The notes under the pieces: model-generated
What the model was told of the DNA's origin: nothing
Seen by the model: the letters and a program-made list of their open reading frames with translations, nothing else
Databases searched by the model: none
Shown: positions 17,899 through 32,610 of the stretch, in pieces
How the letters are laid out: each line of letters begins with the position of its first letter
Position numbering within the stretch: the stretch's first letter is position 1
Assembly: GCA_021129655.1 (NCBI GenBank)
Contig: JAJOLC010000019.1
Coordinates: 1 to 34,326, forward strand
Length of the DNA stretch: 34,326 bases
Direction: 5' to 3'
Source: Minisyncoccota bacterium
GTDB taxonomy: Bacteria > Patescibacteriota > Minisyncoccia > Phycocordibacterales > UBA918
Made by a program: the position numbers and the translations under genes

Positions 17899-18007
17899 AA
17901 TAACCTCCGTTGAAGTGAGTCGCAGTAGCGCTTTAATTAAGCTATATCATTCATTGTTTTTGTCAAATATTCCAACAACTTGAGAGTTTTTATTAGATTG
18001 AAACGAC

Positions 18008-18175
18008 AAAATCCACCTAAAGGTGGATCTCTATCTCTGGCTCCGGCGGCAGGAGTCTCTCTTGCTACACAAGCAGTATACTTTTTGGACAGACAGGTTA
18101 GCCCTGCTCCCGATCTGACTCAAAAGCTTTTCGAGTCCTGACGAAAGTGACATTGAGTCACTTTCTCCGCCGCGG
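18008..18175 (-). ncRNA. Candidate structured non-coding RNA with tRNA-like 3' segment and terminator (novel, unassigned)
   Basis: Closing CGGCGG/CCGCCG (18167-18172 / 18044-18049), 9-bp hairpin 18143-18165, hairpin 18117-18137, small hairpins, 18-nt identity to tRNA-Asn 3' end at 18037-18054, terminator 18011-18028. Confidence 0.45.
18011..18028 (-). terminator. Terminator of the candidate ncRNA unit
   Basis: ATCCACCT AA AGGTGGAT, then TTTTGTCGTTT on minus strand. Confidence 0.65.
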
Positions 18176-18181
18176 CATAGA

Positions 18182-18203
18182 AAAATCCCCTTTCGGGGAT
18201 TTT
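18182..18203 (-). terminator. Terminator downstream of tRNA-Asn
   Basis: AAAATCCCC TTTC GGGGATTTT; on minus strand followed by TTTTTCT. Confidence 0.75.
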
Positions 18204-18251
18204 CCGATTCCTTCCGCCTACGGCGGACAAAAATTTGCGAGTTGTACTGAC

Positions 18252-18327
18252 TGGCTCCGGCGGCAGGACTCGAACCTGCGACAAATTGATTAACAGTCAA
18301 CTGCTCTACCAGCTGAGCTACGCCGGA
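18252..18327 (-). tRNA. tRNA-Asn (anticodon GTT), CCA encoded
   Basis: TCCGGCGTAGCTCAGCTGGTAGAGCAGTTGACTGTTAATCAATTTGTCGCAGGTTCGAGTCCTGCCGCCGGAGCCA folds as a canonical cloverleaf. Confidence 0.97.
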
Positions 18328-18497
18328 ATGAATAGGATAATAAAAGTTTATTTTTATTAGTTATCTGAATGAACGGCGAAAGATTTTTCTTACGCCGGAA
18401 TATTCTTCTTACCTACTTTCGTAAGTGCGACTATTGTACCTATTTTTATGATTATTTCAACATGCTAAATATCAATTAGTAATATAGACTTAACAAT

Positions 18498-19361
18498 ATG
18501 CCAGAACTTCCAGAAGTCGAAACTGTGCGAATGCAACTTCAAAGAAAGGTAGTTGGGAAAACCGTTGCTGACGTTGAAGTTTTTCATGCCAAATCAGTCG
18601 ATAACAACAGTAATATCGAGGACCAGTTGCGAGGTAAAACTATTTCTGATGTAGACAGGATAGGAAAACTGATGATTTTTTCATTTGTAGATGAGGATGA
18701 CTTATTCCTACTGGCTCATCTAAAGATGACTGGCCAGTTTTTCTATATAGACAAAACTGGAAAAACTATCGGAGGAGGTCACTCCGCGACAGCTGGCGAT
18801 ACCGAGCTACCAACGAAACATACGCGTGTTACCTTTCATTTTACTGACCGTACTTCCCTACACTTTAACGACATGAGAATATTTGGTTATGTAAAAGTTG
18901 CTACAGCTAACGAAGTAAGAACTGCACGTGCCCGATTTGGACCAGAGCCTATCAGCCCTGACTTCGACTGCTCATGGTTCCATAAAAAGCTAAACAAAAG
19001 GAAAACTCCCATTAAGGCCGCTCTACTGGACCAAACCTTCATTGCCGGACTTGGCAATATTTACGTAGACGAGGCGCTGTGGCGAGCAAAGGTAAGACCA
19101 ACCAGACGATCGGACAAGTTAACCAAGAAAGAAGCGGCGGCGCTTTGTGCTGCCGCTGGTGACGTCATGAATGAATCTATAGCGGTGGGAGGAACCACCT
19201 TTCAACACTTCGTTGACACAGGTGGAGCTAACGGTAATTTTTCAGACTACTTGAAGGTTTTCGGACAACAAGGCAAAGCCTGTGAGCGTTGTGGCAAAAT
19301 CATAAAGAAAATACGCTGCGCTGGCAGAGGCACTCACTACTGCACAGGTTGTCAGAAGTAA
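18498..19361 (+). CDS. mutM: Formamidopyrimidine-DNA glycosylase
   Basis: MPELPEVETVRMQL start, HLKMTGQF, FIAGLGNIYVDEALW, C-terminal zinc finger CERCGKIIKKIRCAGRGTHYCTGCQ. Confidence 0.96.
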   Translation: MPELPEVETVRMQLQRKVVGKTVADVEVFHAKSVDNNSNIEDQLRGKTISDVDRIGKLMIFSFVDEDDLFLLAHLKMTGQFFYIDKTGKTIGGGHSATAGDTELPTKHTRVTFHFTDRTSLHFNDMRIFGYVKVATANEVRTARARFGPEPISPDFDCSWFHKKLNKRKTPIKAALLDQTFIAGLGNIYVDEALWRAKVRPTRRSDKLTKKEAAALCAAAGDVMNESIAVGGTTFQHFVDTGGANGNFSDYLKVFGQQGKACERCGKIIKKIRCAGRGTHYCTGCQK

Positions 19362-28667: not shown

Positions 28668-29150
28668 TTAACCTGCAATTGAAATAAGTAGGATGAAGCT
28701 GATTAGAACTCCGAAGATAGCCCATGTTTCCACCATTACGGACAGAACGATAGCCTTACCCATGTTGCTTTCGTCTTTTGCAATCATTGAGATACCTGCT
28801 GCTGCTACGATTCCCTGGAACATACCTGAGAAGTAACCAGCTACGCCGATAGGGATTCCAGCCATAAGATACTGAAGACCTGTTGCAGTATCAATCATTA
28901 CTACTCCATCTGCTCCTAGGACTCCTGAGAAATTAAGAATCAAGAAGGCTCCCACTAGACCATAAATACCCTGTGAACCTGGAAGTGCCTGCATAAGAAG
29001 CATCTTTCCGAAAAGCTGTGGCTTTTCACCAAGCACTCCGGCCGCTGCTTGTCCTGCGTGCCCCATTCCGATTGCTGAGCCACTGAATCCGAGAGCGGCT
29101 GCAATTGCTGCTCCTGCGAAAACCAACCCTACTCCAATTAATGTTTCCAT
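28668..29150 (-). CDS. atpK: V/A-type ATPase subunit K (rotor proteolipid, 4 TM)
   Basis: LPGSQGIYGLVGAFLIL and VMVETWAIFGVLISFILL hairpins, FSGMFQGIVAAAGI. Confidence 0.94.
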   Translation of the reverse strand: METLIGVGLVFAGAAIAAALGFSGSAIGMGHAGQAAAGVLGEKPQLFGKMLLMQALPGSQGIYGLVGAFLILNFSGVLGADGVVMIDTATGLQYLMAGIPIGVAGYFSGMFQGIVAAAGISMIAKDESNMGKAIVLSVMVETWAIFGVLISFILLISIAG

Positions 29151-29216
29151 AATACTTTTGTTATTTAATGTTTATTTGACTAATTATTTATAAATCTACC
29201 TCTCCCCTAACAACGG

Positions 29217-31175
29217 TCAATCGTCTCCGACCGTGACATATTTTTCTGTGCGGGAGAGTGGAGCAAACTGCTTGCCGGTACCGGCGATAAATTTACCAAA
29301 GAACTCTACGAACTGCAATCGAGCACTATGAATGAATGCTCCTAGAGTATTTACCATTAGAGTAAACAAGTGTCCAACTACCAATACCACAATCGATATA
29401 ACGGTCCCAACGTAAGGAATAGATTCGGCTACAATCTCTGCGATTAGATTAACGGCAAAGGCTAGAGCTGTTGTAGCTAGTCCTAGAGCCAACAGACGTG
29501 AGTAAGACAGGATATCTGAGAAGTACCCAATACTGTTATATAGACTCAAGGCTGCGCTTTGCACCTTCTGTAGAACAGTCTCACCCTTACGACCACTAGC
29601 CATAATAATTAAAGCAATACCTACGTATATAAGATTAGTGATGTTTGCTAATGGAAGAATGTCTACGTAACCAATGCTTGTCAAAAGATACAGAATACCA
29701 ATCATAAACATTAACAACCATGGACCTTGATCTAATATACCTTCCATTAGCTTGTCGTTCTTATAGTCGCTGTAAATCTTGATGACCATACCAGTCATAA
29801 CTTGTACTACACCAAGAGATAGAGCTAGGTAGAATACTGGCAAAGGGTCACCAATTGGGTCGAACAACTGAATCGCCAGTAAGAAATCTGGTAGAGCTTC
29901 TGGGGATATACCCAAATAACCACCAAACAGTAGCCCAACCAAAGCTGAACCAAGACCCATAAATAAGAGCAATTTTGCAAATACTCTTATCTCGTTCGAC
30001 ACCTTAAACATAGTCAAAACCATGATTGCTACCCCCATCAAGAAAACTCCGTATCCAACATCAGTTAGTGAAAGTCCGAAAAACAGAAAGAAAAAACCAG
30101 CCAAAAATACAGTTGGATCCAAGTCTCTATGCCCAGGCATACCATAAAGTCGAGTAATGGCTTCGAACGGTTGAATGAAAGCTGAGTTTTGGATTTCTAC
30201 AGGAGGCGCCTCGTCTTCTTCTGTCTCAATATCAAACATTGTCGCGGCAATGTCTCCAGACTTAAATTCAGACTCAATTTGATTTCGTTTATTCTTGTTT
30301 ATCCAACCGGTAAACAGAACGGATGATTTAGTTGCTACTGCCGATTCAACTACCGCAAACCGTTCTCTTTGCCAAGCTAATATTTCTGAAGCGATTCTTA
30401 ATGCTCGGACATGTGTAATTGAGAAATGCTCGGCCTGATCGTGCAGCAAAGCCAGTTCTCCCTTAGCAGTTGAAAGCGCTTGTTCAGCTGCTGTAATCTC
30501 AACTTCTGCTGTCTCTACTCCAGTGGGAGCTGCTGACTCTTCAGTTGTACTCGCGTTTAGTAGTTGTTGTAACTTAGACAAATCCTCAGACCGGACCGTC
30601 ACAGCTGCCAAGTTGTCTGACACAACTGTAAGCTGGTTCGGTAATTCTTCAGTAGTGAAAATTTCTGATAGATATCCAGCCAACGGTTCAGTTTCGGTAG
30701 CCTGTTCAGACTCAACTAAGACAGTATTTGTAAGCCCTGTTTTAAGTGCAGCGAGCTTGATTGGTAAGGCTTTCCACTTAACCAGTAGTTCACGCTGAAC
30801 TGTTAATGTTCGCAACTCCTCATTCTTATCAGCGAACTCAACTTGCAACCGCTCCAAGTCCTCTACGATTTCAGCAATAATTGCGGTGTCTGCCAGTTTT
30901 TCAGATACGTCGTCTTCGGTCATCTCAACTCGAGTACCTTCTCGCAGTGATTTCCACAATTTTACTTTAGGAGCATATGGCTCAAGAAAACCTAGCGCGT
31001 GCTGAACACGAGGCAATAACTGAGCATGAGGAAACTCCAATTGTGGGGCAGAAGTATTTTCCACTTCAACCTCTTTAAATTCGAAGGCTCCGGTCTTTTG
31101 AATACTATTCAGCGCAGCATCAACATCAGTCGCATGGACCAATAGACGCACCTTTTGCATGGGGACTATAGCCAT
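29217..31175 (-). CDS. atpI: V/A-type ATPase subunit I
   Basis: N-terminal soluble domain plus multi-TM C-terminus (FFFLFFGLSLTDVGYG, LSYSRLLALGLATTALA, GHLFTLMVNTLGAFIHSARLQFVEFFGKF). Confidence 0.94.
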   Translation of the reverse strand: MAIVPMQKVRLLVHATDVDAALNSIQKTGAFEFKEVEVENTSAPQLEFPHAQLLPRVQHALGFLEPYAPKVKLWKSLREGTRVEMTEDDVSEKLADTAIIAEIVEDLERLQVEFADKNEELRTLTVQRELLVKWKALPIKLAALKTGLTNTVLVESEQATETEPLAGYLSEIFTTEELPNQLTVVSDNLAAVTVRSEDLSKLQQLLNASTTEESAAPTGVETAEVEITAAEQALSTAKGELALLHDQAEHFSITHVRALRIASEILAWQRERFAVVESAVATKSSVLFTGWINKNKRNQIESEFKSGDIAATMFDIETEEDEAPPVEIQNSAFIQPFEAITRLYGMPGHRDLDPTVFLAGFFFLFFGLSLTDVGYGVFLMGVAIMVLTMFKVSNEIRVFAKLLLFMGLGSALVGLLFGGYLGISPEALPDFLLAIQLFDPIGDPLPVFYLALSLGVVQVMTGMVIKIYSDYKNDKLMEGILDQGPWLLMFMIGILYLLTSIGYVDILPLANITNLIYVGIALIIMASGRKGETVLQKVQSAALSLYNSIGYFSDILSYSRLLALGLATTALAFAVNLIAEIVAESIPYVGTVISIVVLVVGHLFTLMVNTLGAFIHSARLQFVEFFGKFIAGTGKQFAPLSRTEKYVTVGDD

Positions 31176-31181
31176 GACTTA

Positions 31182-31484
31182 TTATTTAAAGTTCTGCTTA
31201 ATTACTTTAAGTACTTCTTCTTTACTATCGGCAAACTTTTTTTTCACAGCAGTAACATTGTCTGTTGTTTCAACATCAATCTTACCTGTCATGTCAGCGA
31301 CATGCTTTTCATATTCTTTGAGAGCAGCTTTTCCGGCTTCATCTAACTTTTTTCCTTCAGACTCTAGCCGTAAAGATTTTTCTTCACGAGCTGCAGTTAC
31401 AGAAGCAGCTGCTTCTGCTTTAGCAGTTTCAATCCCTGTTTCAGCCTCTTGTTCAGCTTTCAGTACTTCATCTAGAGCAGTCAT
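31182..31484 (-). CDS. atpH: V/A-type ATPase subunit H/G (peripheral stalk coiled coil)
   Basis: 100 aa Ala/Glu/Lys coiled coil at first position of operon, as in archaeal aha operons. Confidence 0.7.
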   Translation of the reverse strand: MTALDEVLKAEQEAETGIETAKAEAAASVTAAREEKSLRLESEGKKLDEAGKAALKEYEKHVADMTGKIDVETTDNVTAVKKKFADSKEEVLKVIKQNFK

Positions 31485-31511
31485 AATAGACGTGGAAAAT
31501 TAAATAAATAT

Positions 31512-31585
31512 TGGCCACATAGCGAATAGCTATCTGTGGCATCTGCGCATAATTGAGAGTCGACAAAAGTCGATACACCTATGCG
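31512..31585 (-). promoter_or_regulatory. Structured 5' leader of V-ATPase operon (two hairpins)
   Basis: CGCATA..TCGAC AAAA GTCGA..TATGCG (31546-31585) and GCCACATAGC..GCTATCTGTGGC (~31514-31540). Confidence 0.5.
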
Positions 31586-31590
31586 ACTGC

Positions 31591-31618
31591 ATACTACTAC
31601 GTTCATATACATCGTCAA
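31591..31618 (-). promoter_or_regulatory. Putative sigma70-like promoter of V-ATPase operon
   Basis: Minus strand TTGACG (31613-31618), 16-nt spacer, TAGTAT (31591-31596). Confidence 0.55.
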
Positions 31619-31712
31619 GGGGAATATCTGGATAACACCCCAAAATTCTATTTAAGCAACATTTAGCTGCACCCGCCAAGCAACTTGGAGTGATTTTGCT
31701 ATACTATTAAAC

Positions 31713-31796
31713 ATGAAAGTGATAATACTAGCGCTAGGGGGGTTCATACTCCTGCTGATGATTAACTCATTTTTAGGAGGAAATCCTTTAGGATAA
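31713..31796 (+). CDS. Micro-ORF, 27-aa single-TM peptide MKVIILALGGFILLLMINSFLGGNPLG
   Basis: ATG 7 nt after TGCTATACT extended -10; stop 4 nt before truB ATG. Confidence 0.4.
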   Translation: MKVIILALGGFILLLMINSFLGGNPLG

Positions 31797-31800
31797 ACAC

Positions 31801-32610
31801 ATGACTGATAAATATTTATTATTGGACAAAAAGGTAGGAGAAACCCCCCTATCCTGCGCTGAAGACTGGAGAGCAGAACATCCTGAATTAAATGGTGTTT
31901 CTATGGCTTATGCTGGTCGATTAGACCCAATGGCCTCGGGTAAGCTTTTGATATTGCTTGGAGACGAGTGTAAGAAGCAAACTGACTATCACGGTTTAGA
32001 TAAGGCGTACAAATTTTCAGTCTTATTAGGAATTGAGTCTGATTCACTTGATGTATTAGGTAGACTGAAGACCTGCCCCACCTCTGATAAAGACGCTGCT
32101 AAAGAACTGAATGGAATTCTAAATTCCTTAACTGGAAAAATTGAACTTCCCTACCCACGCTTTTCTGCCAAAACAGTCCAAGGCAAACCTCTGCATACAT
32201 GGACCATGGAAAACCGACTAGACGAGATTGAAATACCAACCAAAGAATCAGAGATATATACACTTGAATTCGATAGAAAAGAAACCTTAACTAAAGAAGA
32301 CCTAGTCAAAAGTGCTCTAGAAAAAGTTAACTCAATACCGCCTGTTACAGAACTACGTAAAGCTCTTGGCAACGACTTTAGACGAGTTGATGTGCGTAAG
32401 GACTGGAACAATATCCTTAAGGATAATTCGCTTCCCGAAAATTTCGATATTGTTCACCTTAATTGCATCGCCTCATCTGGTACCTACATGAGGACCCTGG
32501 CGGGTATAATAGCCAAAAAACTAGGCACATGTGGCCTAGCCTGGAGTATTCATAGAGACACTATCGGAATCTACGATTCCCAAAATAGTAAGTGGATCAA
32601 AGAGTACTAG
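31801..32610 (+). CDS. truB: tRNA pseudouridine synthase B
   Basis: YAGRLDPMASGKLLILLGDECK catalytic motif, KAYKFSVLLGIESDSLDVLG, CIASSGTYMRTLAGIIAKKLGT. Confidence 0.9.
   Translation: MTDKYLLLDKKVGETPLSCAEDWRAEHPELNGVSMAYAGRLDPMASGKLLILLGDECKKQTDYHGLDKAYKFSVLLGIESDSLDVLGRLKTCPTSDKDAAKELNGILNSLTGKIELPYPRFSAKTVQGKPLHTWTMENRLDEIEIPTKESEIYTLEFDRKETLTKEDLVKSALEKVNSIPPVTELRKALGNDFRRVDVRKDWNNILKDNSLPENFDIVHLNCIASSGTYMRTLAGIIAKKLGTCGLAWSIHRDTIGIYDSQNSKWIKEY

Follow-up and report, generated by a model that had tools for sequence, protein, structure and literature searches.

In this work we describe a structured RNA element encoded on the minus strand of contig JAJOLC010000019.1 from a Minisyncoccota bacterium (GenBank assembly GCA_021129655.1; the window hereafter is this whole stretch of 34,326 nucleotides (nt)). 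The element occupies positions 18037-18175, downstream of an intact tRNA-Asn gene and its terminator-like hairpin, and almost certainly belongs to a genuine RNA family that is conserved and linked to tRNA ends. Relatives of the element lie behind many different tRNA genes, each containing a guide complementary to the upstream tRNA as well as a repeat of the 3' end of that tRNA, and a compact form of the same core interrupts or precedes other genes. Our leading interpretation, drawn from sequence features and held with slightly less than even confidence, is that of a mobile, intron-like RNA with a splicing-type mechanism, which leaves its host gene with a duplicated terminal exon. All data are sequences from environmental, largely metagenome-assembled genomes, and the loci sampled are the best-scoring ones.

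The organization of the locus is given in Table 1. The stretch TCCTGCCGCCGGAGCCAG (18054-18037) is identical to the 3' end of tRNA-Asn at 18268-18251. Folding of the window element yields -68.9 kcal/mol compared to a shuffled mean of -48.8 (z = -4.5; 0 of 200 shuffles as stable), the fold conserved in the family lies only ~3.6 kcal/mol above the minimum free energy of this copy, and a duplex between the element and the tRNA-Asn segment reaches -28 kcal/mol. The features named in a sequence-only reading of the locus, which had proposed a novel structured RNA ending in a tRNA-like 3' segment, were all found on the minus strand by direct sequence check, and comparative data back its outer stem, P2 and terminal hairpin. 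Two other hairpins that it drew, GACTC-AAAAGCTTTT-GAGTC and CAGG-CCTG, are without comparative support, the conserved fold consisting of P3, P4 and P5 instead. Its view that the RNA lies outside known families while carrying a tRNA 3'-end copy agrees with our searches: Rfam 15 at gathering thresholds matched only tRNA in the window, and the non-tRNA matches from a permissive scan of 17900-18500 all fell far below gathering scores. Two of the outcomes that it had named as refuting did not occur: the stems are kept in relatives, with strong covariation, and Infernal assigned the element to no known family at threshold.

Table 1. Features of the tRNA-Asn locus and the downstream element in the window
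Feature	Position	Strand	Basis or remark
tRNA-Asn(GTT), intact host gene	18252..18327	-	ARAGORN and Rfam
Target segment in tRNA-Asn, from T-loop TTC to acceptor 3' strand and CCA	18251..18274	-	Guide complementarity
P0, terminator-like hairpin AAAATCCCC-GAAA-GGGGATTTTT, separating tRNA-Asn from the element	18181..18203	-	Seen directly in the sequence
CGGCGG, acceptor part of the guide and P1 5' strand; complements CCGCCG of the tRNA and of the 3' copy	18167..18172	-	
P2, hairpin GAAAGTGAC-TCAAT-GTCACTTTC	18143..18165	-	Relatives carry the same kind of hairpin
Guide CAGGACTCGAA, P3 5' strand; exact reverse complement of tRNA-Asn TTCGAGTCCTG	18130..18140	-	Duplex -18.2 kcal/mol
P4, long hairpin	18080..18128	-	Covariation
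Conserved AUACUG directly before P5	18079-18074	-	
P5, hairpin with GUA loop	18061..18073	-	Covariation
3' copy, matching the tRNA-Asn end at all 18 nt and providing the P3 3' strand by its first bases	18037..18054	-	
Distal (second) terminator-like hairpin	18008..18029	-	

Palindromes resembling P0 occupy the equivalent position in most relatives. In the window, a further small hairpin, GTCCGCCGTAGGCGGA (18213-18228, minus strand), lies between tRNA-Asn and the terminator; it resembles the tRNA acceptor complement and is possibly a leftover of an older unit. At the tRNA-Asn locus of one relative (L026, G015:C15, 1992-2859) the element is found ~870 nt behind the tRNA, and the intervening sequence may include a gene.

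A multi-copy family fitted to its host tRNAs

An initial DNA search yielded partial matches both at other sites of this genome and in relatives, and nearly all of them stood immediately behind various tRNA genes. A covariance model of the tRNA-linked form (R1) finds 11 copies in the element's own genome, 9 of them on the same strand within ~165 nt downstream of a tRNA, such that 9 of the 29 tRNAs encoded there carry the element behind them. Across a single order of Paceibacterota (small-genome Patescibacteria), to which the family is largely confined, matches occur in 109 of 197 genomes, representing 82 of 140 genera, and are absent from the remaining 88, while among 288 genomes spanning the phylum only 7 match, 6 from the same order and 1 from outside it; since few candidates were scored per genome, copy counts from these two scans are lower bounds. 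The named genomes returned by an exact-pattern search all belong to Paceibacterota, including Kaiserbacteria, Nomurabacteria and Vogelbacteria. Approximately 30 isoacceptors bear the element, and perfect tandem units were also seen.

Alignment of 22 copies resolves a conserved three-way junction composed of P3 (the guide paired with the 3' copy), P4 (CUUUUG..CAAAAG plus an inner helix) and P5 (CUUGU-GUA-GCAAG). Changes on both sides of a pair were found at 20 of 25 pairs, with a covariation score of 0.619 compared to 0.212 for shuffled alignments, and extending the set to 74 distinct sequences revealed double changes at all 25; each of the three core helices shows strong covariation. Pairs in P4 and P5 comprise 34 G-U versus 1234 Watson-Crick pairs, and the loops and junctions GUGAG, GCAAGA, GAA, UACUG and GUA are conserved.

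In tRNA-linked copies the guide complements the T-loop, the T-stem and often the acceptor strand of the tRNA lying upstream. Over 79 element/tRNA pairs the 12-nt guide averages 10.9 matches to its own tRNA compared to 8.4 to other tRNAs (0 of 2000 permutations), while the 3' segment, which reproduces the tRNA between position 57 and the discriminator, averages 13.8 matches over 17 nt to its own tRNA and 8.2 to others. An intact acceptor/T minihelix is not universal: the acceptor guide (5' of P2) fits at 7 or more of 8 positions in 36 of the 79 pairs, compared to 3.4 expected, and the 3' copy is exact over its 17 nt in 35. Where tRNA and 3' copy have diverged, the guide fits the tRNA at 68 positions and its own copy at only 4, a ratio that is approximate because the offset of the 3' copy was picked by best overall fit; the guide is therefore tied to the tRNA and does not merely reflect internal pairing. 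Near-identical cores were also found behind different tRNAs of one genome with guide and copy altered to fit (Lys/Leu in G002, Arg/Ser in G119), a pattern that fits either transfer with retargeting or gene conversion limited to the core. In addition, the tRNA 3' end is directly repeated at both borders of the unit, as in tRNA-integrating elements. A mirror case lies upstream of a tRNA-Arg, where tRNA nt 1-33 are followed by the core and then by a guide spanning 33|34.

The sequence-only reading had further proposed a small RNA in its own right, possibly one that arose by tRNA duplication or imitates a tRNA 3' end. The tRNA 3'-end copy that it noticed is real, and in the 35 exact pairs it includes the discriminator base; as an account of the element, this origin is very improbable. 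The element is no one-off, as the same core stands behind nearly all isotypes with guide and 3' copy fitted to each tRNA, and the core recurs in and before protein genes without any tRNA part. Furthermore, the guide is a strict reverse complement through the T-loop rather than the tRNA 5' strand, and many units are without an intact acceptor helix. Because the guide passes through the T-loop in antisense, readings as a T-box, a tmRNA or a plain tRNA duplication were likewise rejected.

Several loci (L261, L264, L269, L259, the start of L018 and downstream of L105) carry an RNA scaffold of a second, larger kind, guide-GAAC-..GCGAGCCG-..-UUGUGACC-exon, which follows the same logic, with a guide to the tRNA plus a 3' copy, and often encloses the compact core. 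At L104/L105 (G129:C11) a unit is duplicated ~7 kb away with its flanks inverted and adjoins a second-scaffold unit bearing a 19-nt guide to tRNA-Ser. Upstream of position 1501 on the minus strand of L057 (G170:C9), the 3' half of a tRNA-Leu is replaced by the 3' half of an element, or the contig is an assembly chimera.

Compact copies in and before genes

A compact form without the guide (model R2) reads 5' GUGAG-P2-GCAAGA-P4-UACAG-P5 and spans ~90-100 nt. Genomes hold up to 40 R2 copies, cross-matches to the tRNA-linked form included, and the highest load amounts to 35-40 model matches in a genome of ~1 Mb. Reduced bacterial genomes are supposedly poor in non-coding repeats, which contrasts with this load.

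Three compact copies interrupt protein genes without any duplication of an exon. The insert in ileS of G015 is 90 nt long, in frame and free of stops, and the 30 residues that it encodes are absent at that point from solved IleRS homologues. The 93-nt insert in an AbrB-like gene of G013 contains in-frame stops, with flanking exons that join in frame, while the 88-nt insert in a kinase gene of the same genome is out of frame. Another compact copy lies in a duplicated half of tRNA-Lys, placed exactly within the T-loop. Elsewhere the core precedes genes whose 5' end is duplicated, as observed for msrA (three genomes, at one and the same codon), a GH1 glycosidase (two genomes), an acylphosphatase, and likewise tRNA-fMet, tRNA-Arg and tRNA-Val. 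Among the duplicated 5' coding copies, 14 changed codons are synonymous and 5 are not (synonymous expectation 20%; p = 5e-7), and these copies have therefore evolved as protein-coding sequence, either here or in a donor. We also observed that the element-bearing ileS (L198, G015:C5 ~28860-31950) has an inserted histidine-phosphatase (phosphoglycerate-mutase-like, PF00300) domain in its class I synthetase domain.

A candidate splicing mechanism and its alternatives

The proposed mechanism builds on a basic unit consisting of the 90-100 nt core (GUGAG, P2, the GCAAGA joint, P4, UACAG and, at the 3' end, P5). This core sits within genes, or at a gene end with a short terminal exon duplicated, such that one intact gene copy is always left. 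In the type found at tRNA 3' ends, the GCAAGA joint between P2 and P4 is enlarged into, or replaced by, the guide, which pairs with the 3' exon copy starting directly after P5, and whose invariant GAA can pair with TTC 54-56 of the intact tRNA. Because the guide can pair with the exon copy while its GAA complements TTC 54-56, it is predicted to act like a splint across 56|57, holding ...TTC and GANTCC... side by side. Such an element would splice now, or would once have done so, in cis or in trans, and its excision at the RNA level, its insertion with terminal-exon duplication and its spread to new genes are all suggested by sequence patterns. A more specific formulation, which we put forward with greater reserve, is that Paceibacterota contain introns or trans-splicing ribozymes of a new and very small class (~90-100 nt). 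These would be provided with a guide directed at the end of the invaded gene (tRNA 3' halves, tRNA 5' halves or the first exons of protein genes) and with a spare copy of that end, so that the host gene would never be lost.

Several observations weigh against the intron-like interpretation. Approximately one third of the 3' copies are degenerate, so that splicing at those loci could yield no good tRNA. Comparison of close relatives yielded no clean empty site, the same-genus pair G041/G120 being too diverged. The ileS copy, in frame and without a stop, might just be translated as part of the protein; the kinase gene, which contains an additional stop, may be a pseudogene; the synonymous divergence of the 5' copies could also be explained by an origin in another species; and many compact copies are intergenic or nested in the larger scaffold. 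In addition, no known catalytic core was recognized in the element, the RtcB ligase was found in 0 of 20 element-rich genomes, reverse transcriptase (RVT_1) is absent from the element's own genome and from many rich genomes and does not track the element, and neither does RNA_ligase.

Of the alternatives, a DNA-level mobile repeat fares best and is nonetheless unlikely. Comparable to Rickettsia palindromic elements, miniature inverted-repeat transposable elements (MITEs) or folded-strand integrating elements, such a repeat would target tRNA 3' ends and gene starts, duplicate its target and be tolerated, as a translated insert in proteins, with an inactive RNA. The tRNA segment from the T-loop to the 3' end is a classic integrase attachment site, and the direct repeats flanking the units vary in length from 17 to 61 nt, features which together with perfect tandem units, the in-frame, stop-free ileS insert and the scarcity of G-U pairs in P4 and P5 favor a DNA element. 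Arguing against it, the guide tracks the tRNA rather than the element's own strand, the conserved loops and junctions resemble a functional RNA or a protein-binding site, and the AbrB-like and kinase inserts introduce stops or shift the frame. MITE-like spread and concerted gene conversion of cores are possible contributors.

Less probable still is a cis-acting tRNA trailer or antisense RNA regulating tRNA folding or maturation, in which the P0 hairpin would bring the guide into pairing with the tRNA 3' half until the 3' copy displaces it. That the guide tracks the tRNA, that at many loci the tRNA end joins with the P0 hairpin and the acceptor guide in a single continuous hairpin, and that the window element forms its -28 kcal/mol duplex with the tRNA segment would all be expected of such a regulator. 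It leaves unexplained the compact copies in the ileS, AbrB-like and kinase genes and before msrA and the GH1 gene; moreover, only some tRNAs bear the element (9 of 29 here), 88 of the 197 genomes of the order are without it, and the acceptor guide and 3' copy are often decayed. Neither the DNA repeat nor the tRNA regulator accounts for all of the data.

If the intron-like element is indeed spliced, it would to our knowledge constitute the smallest known class of bacterial introns, and it would reveal a new means by which mobile elements spare their hosts. Without splicing, it still represents a large RNA family that is undescribed and directed at tRNA ends. In both cases it accounts for tRNA neighbourhoods that may seem unusual in Patescibacteria and supplies concrete genes for testing (ileS, msrA and the AbrB-like gene).

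Relation to known mobile elements

No published description of the element was found in the open-access literature, and it is probably undescribed and of a new kind. Like integrative elements at tRNA 3' ends, it lies downstream of an intact tRNA, with a direct repeat of the tRNA 3' end at its far border, and forms tandem arrays; unlike them, its unit of ~150-200 nt contains no gene (being too short for an integrase), includes an inverted guide copy and has mirror copies at gene 5' ends. Rickettsia palindromic elements are likewise ~100-nt structured repeats inside protein genes of a reduced genome, and proteins containing them have been listed (PMC2635572). The in-frame, stop-free insertion by which they are known was found here in ileS, while the AbrB-like and kinase inserts depart from it; the tRNA-specific guide and exon copy, the strongly covarying three-way junction and the sites directly behind tRNAs further set our element apart.

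Among introns, the abbreviated group III introns of euglenid plastids, at ~100 nt, approach the element in size. Compact copies begin with GUGAG, resembling the GUGYG start of group II introns, a weak sign by itself, and a group II intron of Clostridium tetani provides an example of alternative splicing (PMC3919590). Unlike group II and III introns, the element matches no group II family, with neither domain V nor other Rfam models reaching threshold in the scanned loci, and reverse transcriptase is missing as noted above.

Group I introns in tRNA genes also provide a parallel: they interrupt tRNAs, possess an internal guide that base-pairs with the 5' exon at its end and with the 3' exon at its start, and have a patchy, mobile distribution; genomes bearing the element also carry them in tRNAs. 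The element differs in its size (~90 nt versus 200-500 nt), its sites in the T-loop and at gene ends, its duplicated terminal exon, and its lack of a match to RF00028 (group I core P3-P8). On the scanned element loci Rfam reported only tRNA and one separate group I intron, located in the tRNA gene of L174 (697-960; RF00028, 62.8 bits), so that the same scan that left the elements unmatched recovered a true group I intron. The tRNA genes of this order carry group I introns sometimes directly beside the new element, those of L012 and L070 (upstream of the element) being recognized by eye only.
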